In this document: piece by piece, positions 44,666 to 48,646 of the stretch
Position numbering within the stretch: the stretch's first letter is position 1
How the letters are laid out: every line of letters begins with the position of its first letter
DNA from: Rubrivivax sp.
GTDB taxonomy: Bacteria > Pseudomonadota > Gammaproteobacteria > Burkholderiales > Burkholderiaceae_C
Assembly: GCA_026785885.1 (NCBI GenBank)
Contig: JAJAZC010000121.1
Span: 1 to 48,646 of the forward strand
DNA: 48,646 nucleotides
Reading direction: 5' to 3'
Notes under the pieces: generated by a model
What the model was told of the DNA's origin: nothing
Seen by the model: only the letters and a program-made list of their open reading frames with translations
The model's database searches: none
Position numbers and translations under genes: made by a program

Positions 44666-44702
44666 CCGACTCAATGGCGCGGACTCAATGGCGCGGACTC
44701 AA
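44666..44702. repeat. 14-bp tandem repeat (GACTCAATGGCGCG)
   Basis: Two full copies plus partial, the last overlapping the trkH stop. Confidence 0.85.
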
Positions 44703-46153
44703 CGCCGCCAGAACTGCGGCGTCAGCAACACCAGCACGCTGAGCAGCTCCAGCCGGCCCAGCATCATCGCGAAGGTGCAGACCCAGGTCTGGAAGTCGCT
44801 CAGGCTGCCGTAGTTGACGGCCGGGCCGACATCGCCGAGCCCGGGCCCGATGTTGTTGACGCAGGCCAGCACGGCGGTGAAAGCCGTCACGGCATCCAGC
44901 CCGCTGAACAGCATCAGCATCGTCAGCGTCACCAGCGTGGCGCCATAGGCCATCATGAAAGCGATCACGCTTTGCATCACACGGTCGCCGACGGCATTGC
45001 CACCCAGCACCACCGGGTTGACCACGCTCGGGTGCACGATGCGCACCAGCTCGCGCTGCGCCTGCTTTATCAGCAGCAGCATGCGGATCATCTTGATGCC
45101 GCCGCCGGTGCTGCCGGCGCAGGTGGCGAAGCAACCCAACAAGATCATCAACAGTGACGCGAACAACGGCCACTGCGCGTAGTCGTGCGTGGCGTAGCCG
45201 GCGGTGGTGGCCACCGAGACAACGTGGAAGGCGGTGTGGCGCAGCGCGTTGCCCCAGCTTGCGTATTCACCGCTCAGCACCAGAAAGGTCGTGATCAGCG
45301 CGATGCTGCCGGCCAGCACCGCCACAAAGGCGCGCGCCTCGACGTTGTGCCACAGGCGCAGCGCCGAGCGCGCGCGCCAGGCCATGAAGTACGTGACCAG
45401 GCCAATGCCCGACAAGACCATGAAGACGATGGCCACGGCTTCGATCAGCGGTGAATTCCAGTGGCCGAAGCTGGCGTCGTAGCGCGAAAAGCCGCCCAGG
45501 CTCACGGTGCTGCACATGTGCAAAAAGGCGTCGACCCAGTTCATGCCGGCGGCGCGGTAAGCCAGGAAGCAGGTGATCGACAACACGCCGTAGGTGCCCC
45601 AGATGGCGCGCGCGGTGTCGGCGATGCGCGGCGTCAGCTTCTGATCCTTCAGCGGGCCGGAGGCCTCGGTCTTGTACAGCTGCGAGCCGCCGACGCCCAG
45701 CAGCGGCAGGATGGCCACCGCCAGGATCACTATGCCCAGGCCGCCGACCCAGGTCATGAAACAGCGCCAAACGTTGACCGACAGCGGCAGCGCATCCAAC
45801 CCGGCGATGGCCGTGGCGCCGGTGGCGGTGAAGGCCGACATGGCCTCGAAGTAGGCGTCGGTGGCGCTCAAGCCCGGCACCGCGAGCCACAGCGGCAGCG
45901 CGCCGAACAGCGGCAGCACCAGCCAGGTCAGCGTGACCAGCACAAAGCCGTCGCGCGGCTGCAGCTCGCGCCTGAAGCGCCAGGTCAGCGCGGTGAGCGC
46001 TGCGCCACACAGCAGCGTCAGCAGTATCGCGGTGGCGAAGTCGCGCTGCGCTGCGTCTTGGCCGATCAGCGCAAAGGCCAGCGGCACCAGCATCAGCAGC
46101 GCAAACAACAGCACCATGCGGCCCACCAGTGCAACGACGGCCAGCGTGCCCAT
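44699..46153 (-). CDS. trkH: Trk potassium uptake membrane subunit TrkH
   Basis: MSAFTATGATAIAGLDALP, TVSLGGFSRYDASFG, TCAGSTGGGIKMIRMLLL selectivity-loop motifs. Confidence 0.94.
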   Translation of the reverse strand: MGTLAVVALVGRMVLLFALLMLVPLAFALIGQDAAQRDFATAILLTLLCGAALTALTWRFRRELQPRDGFVLVTLTWLVLPLFGALPLWLAVPGLSATDAYFEAMSAFTATGATAIAGLDALPLSVNVWRCFMTWVGGLGIVILAVAILPLLGVGGSQLYKTEASGPLKDQKLTPRIADTARAIWGTYGVLSITCFLAYRAAGMNWVDAFLHMCSTVSLGGFSRYDASFGHWNSPLIEAVAIVFMVLSGIGLVTYFMAWRARSALRLWHNVEARAFVAVLAGSIALITTFLVLSGEYASWGNALRHTAFHVVSVATTAGYATHDYAQWPLFASLLMILLGCFATCAGSTGGGIKMIRMLLLIKQAQRELVRIVHPSVVNPVVLGGNAVGDRVMQSVIAFMMAYGATLVTLTMLMLFSGLDAVTAFTAVLACVNNIGPGLGDVGPAVNYGSLSDFQTWVCTFAMMLGRLELLSVLVLLTPQFWRR

Positions 46154-46174
46154 GTCAGTACCGCCCGGACATCA

Positions 46175-46418
46175 AGTGCAGTGTTCGACACTGTGTGGAA
46201 CATAAAACCGCGTCTTCGGCCGCCTGGCGTTGTTGCAAGCCTTGCAGACCGCGCTCGCGCAGGGCTTCAGCCCTTCGCCAGGCACGAACAGTCCGCAGGG
46301 ACTGTTCGTGCCCGGGCTCTGCCTCGCGATGCCACTGGGCATCGCTGTGGTTTGCGGCTGGCCAGACGAACGAATCCATCGGCTTTCTCAAATTCCACAC
46401 AGCATCGAACACTGCACT
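46175..46418. mobile_element. MITE-like element with 26-bp terminal inverted repeats
   Basis: Left AGTGCAGTGTTCGACACTGTGTGGAA (46175-46200); right TTCCACACAGCATCGAACACTGCACT (46393-46418), 24/26 complementary; internal perfect 14-bp hairpin. Confidence 0.7.
46281..46312. other. perfect inverted repeat GGCACGAACAGTCC-GCAG-GGACTGTTCGTGCC
   Basis: 14-bp arms, 4-nt loop, inside the MITE-like element. Confidence 0.92.
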
Positions 46419-47841
46419 AGAACAAGAACGTGGCGCTGACCTGGAACAGCTTTTCGACCTCGCGCACCATCGCGTGCTGCGGCACGAAGACGATAACGTG
46501 GTCGTTGCGCTGCACCACCGTGTCGTGGTGCGCCATGATGACTTCGGGCCCGGTGTCGGTCCCGGTATCGGAGCCGTCATCACGGTGCAGACCGCGCACG
46601 ATGGCGCCGACCTGCGCGCCCGCGGGCAACGCCAGCTCGTCGATGCGCCGGCCGGCCATGCGGCAGGTCTTGCGGTCACCACGCACCACCGCTTCCAGCG
46701 CCTCGGCGGCGCCGCGGCGCAGGCTGTGCACGGCGCGCACATCACCGCGGCGTACAAAGGCCAGCAACTCGCCCAGCACGGCCTGGCTGGGATTGATGGC
46801 GATGTCGATGGTCGTGCCCTGCACGAGCTCGGCGTAAGCGCGGCGGTTGATCAGCGCCAGCACGCGCCGCGCACCCAGCCGCTTGGCCAACAGGCAGGAC
46901 ATGATGTTGTCCTCATCGTCGCTGGTCAGCGCCAAGAACAGGTCCATGTCCTGCACGTTCTCGTCGGCCAGCAACTCGCCGTCGGTGCTGTCGCCTTGCA
47001 GCACCAGCACGTCGGCCGCGGTCTGTGTGGCGAGGTACTCGCAACGCGCGGACTGCGGCTCGATGATCTTGATCTGGTGGTCGGCCTGCAGCTGCCGCGC
47101 CAGCCGCAGGCCGATCTTGCCGCCGCCGGCAATCATCACGCGCCGCGCCGGCTTGTCGCGCTGGCGCAGCGCGCCCAGCACGTTGCGGATGTGCGCGGTG
47201 GCGGCCAGCACGAAGACCTCATCGCCGGCCTGGATCAGCGTGTTGCCTTGCAGAACCGGCAGCGCCGTGTCCTGGCGGTAGATGGCGACGATGCGCATGT
47301 CCGCGCCCGGCACCAGGCGCGGAATCTCGGCCAGCGTGTGCTGCACCAGCAGCCCGCCGGCCACCGCGCGCACGGCGATCAGGCTGACCAGGCCACCTGC
47401 AAACTCCAGCACCTGCAGCGCCTCGGGGTAGTCGATCAGCTTGCGGATGTAGGCCGTGACGCTGGCTTCCGGGCACAAGGTGTGGTCGACCGCAAAGCCG
47501 GTCTTGCCGAGCAGCGCACTGCCCTCGACAAACTCCTGGCTGCGCACACGCGCAACCGTCGTCGGCACATTGAACAGGTCGTGCGCAATCTTGCAGACCA
47601 CCAGGTTGGTCTCGTCCAGCGGCGCGCACGCGATGATCATGTCGGCGTCAGCAATGCCGGCTTCCTGCAGCACGCTGGGCTGGATGCCGTTGCCGACCAC
47701 GGCGCGCAGGTCCAGCCGGTCCTGCAGATCGCGCAGGCGCGCCGGGTTGGTGTCGATCAAGGTGATGTCGTTGCGCTCGGTGACCAGACTCTCGGCCACG
47801 CTTTCACCGACGCGGCCTGCACCAAGGATCAGGATCTTCAT
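46417..47841 (-). CDS. trkA: Trk potassium uptake regulatory NAD-binding protein TrkA
   Basis: MKILILGAGRVGESVAESLVTERNDITLID and second Rossmann MIAGGGKIGLRLARQL; stop codon lies in the edge of the adjacent element. Confidence 0.94.
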   Translation of the reverse strand: MKILILGAGRVGESVAESLVTERNDITLIDTNPARLRDLQDRLDLRAVVGNGIQPSVLQEAGIADADMIIACAPLDETNLVVCKIAHDLFNVPTTVARVRSQEFVEGSALLGKTGFAVDHTLCPEASVTAYIRKLIDYPEALQVLEFAGGLVSLIAVRAVAGGLLVQHTLAEIPRLVPGADMRIVAIYRQDTALPVLQGNTLIQAGDEVFVLAATAHIRNVLGALRQRDKPARRVMIAGGGKIGLRLARQLQADHQIKIIEPQSARCEYLATQTAADVLVLQGDSTDGELLADENVQDMDLFLALTSDDEDNIMSCLLAKRLGARRVLALINRRAYAELVQGTTIDIAINPSQAVLGELLAFVRRGDVRAVHSLRRGAAEALEAVVRGDRKTCRMAGRRIDELALPAGAQVGAIVRGLHRDDGSDTGTDTGPEVIMAHHDTVVQRNDHVIVFVPQHAMVREVEKLFQVSATFLF

Positions 47842-48010: not shown

Positions 48011-48646
48011 CCAGCGTCTGGCGCACGGTGCGTGCCAAGAGCGGCTGCAGCGCCGCGGCCAGGCGCTCGGCTTCGCCGCTGTTGTCCAGCCGGCGCTCGC
48101 GTGCGCGCCACAGCGCGGCCAGTGCGGCCTGGTTCTGCGCCAGTGCCGCGGCCAGCGCGGCATGCTGCTGCTGCGGCGCCGTCGGCCGCGGATGCGCGAC
48201 CGCCAGGTAGCTCTCCAGCAGCCCCTGCACGATGGGCGCCAGCGCGTCGTCGCTCCAGGCGACAAAGGGTTTGTCGGTGCCGCGCACGACGTTGAGGCCG
48301 CGCGCCACGCCGGCCGCACCCAGAGCGCCAATGACACTGCCGGCCAGCGCACCGGCGCCCATCGTCAGGCCGCCGCTGAGCACATCGGCCTTGAGCCCGG
48401 CCAGCGCGCCGGTCAGCGCACCGCCCACCAGTGCTGCGCGCCCTTCGCCGAAGCGGCTGCGCAGCGACGGTGCAGCACCGGTTGCGGGGCGCGGTGCAGT
48501 GGCCCGTGTAGACGCAACAGCGGTTGCCGGTACTGCGGTCAGCGCATGCGCGGGTCCAGGTCCAGGTCCAGGTCCAGGTCCAGGTCCAGGTCCAGGTCCA
48601 GGTCCAGGTCCAGGTCCAGGTCCAGGTCCAGGTCCAGGTCCAGGTC
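48000..48646 (-). CDS. C-terminal part of a DUF3482-like (GTPase-associated) protein, truncated at the window edge
   Basis: FGEGRAALVGGALTGALAGLKADVLSGGLTMGAGALAGSVIGALGAAGVARGLNVVRGTDKPFVAWSDDAL; frame continues upstream through a (PG)n tract to the window end. Confidence 0.65.
   Translation of the reverse strand, partial: PGPGPGPGPGPGPGPGPGPGPGPGPGPGPGPAHALTAVPATAVASTRATAPRPATGAAPSLRSRFGEGRAALVGGALTGALAGLKADVLSGGLTMGAGALAGSVIGALGAAGVARGLNVVRGTDKPFVAWSDDALAPIVQGLLESYLAVAHPRPTAPQQQHAALAAALAQNQAALAALWRARERRLDNSGEAERLAAALQPLLARTVRQTLGGP
48553..48646. repeat. 6-bp tandem repeat (GGTCCA)n running off the window
   Basis: About 15.7 perfect copies to the final base. Confidence 0.98.

Follow-up and report, generated by a model that had tools for sequence, protein, structure and literature searches.

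The 48,646-nt stretch of Rubrivivax sp. DNA that we analysed (hereafter the window) carries, between the genes trkA and trkH, a short element which, judging from its sequence, is almost certainly a MITE of IS630 type. It is non-coding, bounded by terminal inverted repeats (TIRs), and extends over positions 46176..46417 (242 bp), limits that are set by the exact ends common to homologous copies; it represents the long form of its family (family A with an internal module B). An earlier note on this DNA had proposed a MITE-like, non-autonomous TIR element within the trkA-trkH unit, and the copies elsewhere in the genome, the related transposase family and the empty sites in relatives described below bear this out. 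The segment of ~244 bp delimited there (46175-46418) is real, although the exact element is the one given above. Its TIR sequence is GTGCAGTGTTCGA, with a left repeat of 26 bp on the plus strand (GTGCAGTGTTCGACACTGTGTGGAAC, 46176..46201) and a right one, also of 26 bp, on the minus strand (GTGCAGTGTTCGATGCTGTGTGGAAT, 46392..46417). The match of 24 out of 26 positions reported previously holds for 46175-46200 and 46393-46418, and over the longer arms 46172-46200 and 46393-46421 complementarity reaches 26 of 29 positions. In 100 shuffled versions of the window the TIR pattern never appears, against two occurrences in the actual sequence; this, together with the further genomic copies, rules out a chance inverted repeat.

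The trkA-trkH locus and its empty sites

Both genes are intact, are supported by Pfam matches and lie on the minus strand in the order trkA (46417..47841, 474 aa) then trkH (44699..46153, 484 aa). The original spacer of 19 nt is kept ahead of trkH (46154..46172, minus strand), and joining the window flanks without the element yields TTCTAGATGTCCGGGCGGTACTGACATG, with a 19-bp gap. Empty sites do exist in relatives: where the two genes adjoin, the gap is mostly of -1 to about 40 bp and contains no element, and almost all trkA-bearing relatives lack it at this place. The closest relative by TrkH (G023, TrkA 82% identical) has a trkA gene ending in TTCTAG followed by a 3-bp gap, and a second genome (G032) shows the same trkA end. 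The segment is neither single-copy nor fixed at this junction among relatives.

As had been noticed before, the trkA stop codon overlaps the terminal repeat: the TAG at 46417..46419 (read 46419-46417 on the minus strand) takes its TA from the target and its G from the first base of the element. That the insertion had reset the TrkA C-terminus, as was then suggested, is not what we found, since TrkA of relatives (QVSATF-L/M-F*) stops at that same residue or no more than one away from it, two of the genes closing with TTCTAG; the element has contributed nothing to the stop codon but its G. Other relatives carry other repeats in the trkA-trkH gap, which therefore collects repeats.

Copies of the element in Burkholderiales

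We searched the genome of origin (3.3 Mb in 227 contigs, 90% complete) and detected, as the earlier note had recommended looking for, five further dispersed copies with the same ends; of the resulting six, two are long and four are short, lacking the internal stretch. Among 40 elements collected from Burkholderiales most measure 160 or 161 bp and three 241-242 bp. The TIR family was present in 17 of 401 genomes of the bacterial family and in 56 named stretches, nearly all from Burkholderiales, and the genus- and family-wide searches together with the scan of named sequences retrieved the same ends in Rubrivivax, Hydrogenophaga, Acidovorax, Ramlibacter, Cupriavidus and Aquabacterium. Searches of plasmid and phage collections with the element gave no match. 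We found no earlier description in the literature searched (a review mentions a MITE with reference to the genome paper of Polaromonas JS666, which lay outside that search), so that this IS630-linked MITE family of Burkholderiales is apparently undescribed so far.

The genome of origin also contains a sister MITE subfamily (L013-L016 and L026, on contigs C102, C12, C18, C103 and C56), with a homologous core and CTAG flanks and with different TIRs (GTGCTCCGGCCCAG.. or GTACGCC..); one of its copies is nested beside another hairpin repeat.

Target site and IS630 partner

The flanks read CTA on the left in 31 and on the right in 28 of the 40 MITE copies, and on both sides in all ten full-length IS copies, an arrangement that reads CTA|element|TAG along one strand and from which it follows that the site before insertion was CTAG and that its TA was duplicated. 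In the window, one TA of the duplication is intact (46418..46419) and the other has decayed to AA on the plus strand (46174..46175). The earlier note had seen no clear target duplication; one is present, within CTAG as in most copies, with one side mutated. This AA in place of TA at the left flank is one of the observations that speak against the IS630-type reading, along with the lack of an intact matching transposase in the genome of origin and a TIR match confined to the outer part, both described below. IS630 itself reportedly prefers TA in CTAG (Tenzen and Ohtsubo, 1991, cited in PMC2170065). CTAG is strongly avoided in the window: base composition predicts 147 sites and trinucleotides predict 36, whereas 12 are present.

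The transposase with matching ends that the earlier note suggested searching for was found in related genomes. Four of them (G336, G313, G426 and G285) contain elements of 1164 bp with matching outer ends and flanks and a single ORF each, which encodes an IS630-family transposase (NF033545, E~1e-80; Pfam DDE_3); its close plasmid relatives include copies annotated as ISBmu8-like IS630. The ends are common to the MITE and this autonomous element in the outer part of the TIR (GTGYAGTGTTC..), the only part over which the match is good. In the genome of origin we detected one decayed IS630 copy, which begins at CTAG and has two in-frame stops, and no intact matching transposase in the 90% of the genome that is available, so that mobilisation was past, was foreign or its source was missed. 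The transposase ORF of the 1164-bp copies (L090:362-1525, L097:362-1525, L192:1456-2619 and others) has no stop of its own: the reading frame continues through the final base of the element (..NGTLH) and is closed by the TAG of the CTAG target.

The element thus resembles the IS630 family (the ISBmu8-like group; IS630, ISY100) in its outer TIR, its TA duplication, its CTAG preference and its autonomous partner of ~1.16 kb with a DDE_3 transposase, and differs in that the MITE family, of 161 or 242 bp, encodes no transposase. ISY100, a member of the IS630 family, also inserts at TA and duplicates it (PMC2170065). A comparable case is RUP of Streptococcus pneumoniae, a MITE with a TA target that an IS630 transposase (IS630-Spn1) is believed to mobilise (PMC2229807); it is likewise IS630-linked, although it differs in host and sequence and has a length of 107 bp and a TIR of 9 bp.

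Flanks alone do not fully separate a TA duplicated within CTAG from a 4-bp CTAG/YTAR duplication, the hallmark of an IS5-group MITE, and MITEPsy1 of Pseudomonas syringae, a short non-coding TIR element located like ours at CTAG, does duplicate CTAG/YTAA (PMC3189936). However, the transposase found between matching ends is of the IS630/DDE_3 type, and since the ends begin with G and finish with C, the 4-bp reading would strip the TIR of its terminal base; MITEPsy1, in turn, is IS5-like, with a 4-bp duplication and a different TIR. We therefore consider an IS5-group origin very improbable.

Hairpins and module B

All the hairpins described by the earlier note are present in the IS630-type element, namely the perfect 14-bp one (46281..46312, plus strand, arms 46281-46294/46299-46312) and the smaller GGGC-TTCA-GCCC and GATGCC-ACTG-GGCATC. 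The first belongs to module B, an 83-bp sequence with two hairpins (46239..46321, plus strand) that occupies a fixed internal site, where it takes the place of the AT of the short form; the last, GCGATGCC-ACTG-GGCATCGC (46326..46345, plus strand), is the apical hairpin of the MITE core and shows compensatory changes between copies.

The fold of the segment is very stable compared with shuffled sequences (z = -12.8 and -10.5 on the two strands), and the core apical hairpin is 97% paired across 35 copies, with two compensatory pairs of ten sequences each. Such features would also be expected of a structured RNA (an attenuator, a processing site or a riboregulator) selected for trkA-trkH control and not mobile. 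Nevertheless, the empty trkA-trkH gaps of relatives mostly refute this explanation, the other copies adjoin unrelated genes, the TIR and CTAG flanks are of IS type, and an Rfam search with the element gave no match. The pairing kept in the core hairpin may reflect selection or template switching in palindromes, which can also yield compensatory changes. We accordingly regard a dedicated regulatory RNA as highly unlikely.

Module B lies in the context GTTGCAA / module / CCTCGCGAT and was found at the identical internal site in elements whose terminal repeats differ from those of the window copy (L176, G161, G263). Overall, four or more different terminal repeats are represented among the MITEs that carry it at precisely this internal site (window 46239-46321; L002, L176, L226, L230, L232, L216), a pattern suggestive of a site-specific or recombining module. 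Many genomes of the same genus also contain it on its own, as a two-hairpin repeat, including one in which it lies in the trkA-trkH gap (G018, L068) independently of the window element. This stand-alone form recalls the REP/BIME-like palindromic repeats spread by a RAYT (IS200/IS605-like) transposase, an explanation that may hold for module B. Extended to the whole element it is hardly credible, since REP elements have a RAYT partner and neither a long TIR nor a TA duplication, whereas here TIRs of 26 bp, a duplicated TA and a partner of IS630 type are present.

Proposed origin and effect on the operon

The history that best fits an IS630-type MITE would start with an IS630-family transposase mobilising the non-autonomous element in trans. 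Cut-and-paste transposition, as in the Tc1/mariner-like IS630, would then have inserted it into the TA of the CTAG formed at the trkA stop codon (TTC TAG). With CTAG as target and G as the first base of the element, TA + G restores the TAG precisely and TrkA stays as it was, and on the far side of the insertion the 19-nt spacer would have remained intact together with the start of trkH.

We found no promoter inside the element that could drive trkH; in the direction of trkH it contains some weak terminator-like sites, at a level close to chance, none of them convincing. The most likely remaining effect on the operon would be mRNA processing between the cistrons, to judge from an analogous system. 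The transcript of ~240 nt would fold between the two cistrons into a long hairpin of very high stability, probably a target of RNase III as in the Correia/NEMIS elements, and its cleavage would loosen the coupling of trkA and trkH. Correia elements of Neisseria have TIRs of 24-26 bp, TA at their termini, a long stem-loop RNA and forms of 107 and 155 bp (PMC2229807), and their transcripts are cut by RNase III (PMC10969869). As in the MITE family described here (161/242 bp), their short and long forms differ by one internal segment. They are, however, an analogue only, for which we claim no sequence relation: they have known promoters, whereas none was found in the window element, and they occur in Neisseria, whereas the named copies of the present family come nearly all from Burkholderiales. 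That RNase III or mRNA processing matters for trkA-trkH is, on this analogy, plausible but less likely than not.

Insertion at stop codons

Preservation of the stop codon appears to extend beyond trkA. For 32 copies, 310 bp or more of sequence was available on each side; in 16 of them the junction TAG terminates a long ORF whose G+C content varies with codon position as in genuine genes, as judged by heuristic gene calling. By comparison, 20 of the 131 unoccupied CTAG sites outside called genes in the same sequences are stop codons (15-16% under stricter distance limits). The p value of the enrichment ranges from 8e-5 to 6e-4 according to the edge limit chosen, with about 2e-4 to 6e-4 for the stricter ones. 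All ten flanking ORFs tested for Pfam domains were positive, and in those for glutamine synthetase, LrgB, RecO and an FAD-binding protein the domain reaches near the junction stop.

This enrichment at gene ends may reflect survival rather than targeting. A "stop-codon safe haven" might be built into the family, a proposal for which we see about equal grounds for belief and disbelief: the CTAG that these genomes strongly avoid would be available at C-TAG stops, the terminal G would rebuild TAG, and insertions would accumulate at gene ends, leaving the protein unchanged and setting hairpins of the RNase III type between the genes of operons, while the autonomous IS would take its stop from the target alike. 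It offers a simple, countable rule for tolerance at gene ends (a CTAG target plus a terminal G equals a preserved stop codon), which may explain many of the intergenic long hairpins in operons of Burkholderiales.

Apart from the element, the window ends in a perfect tandem array of the 6-bp unit GGTCCA (48553-48646, 15.7 copies), which runs to the end of the contig and is probably the place where the assembly broke.
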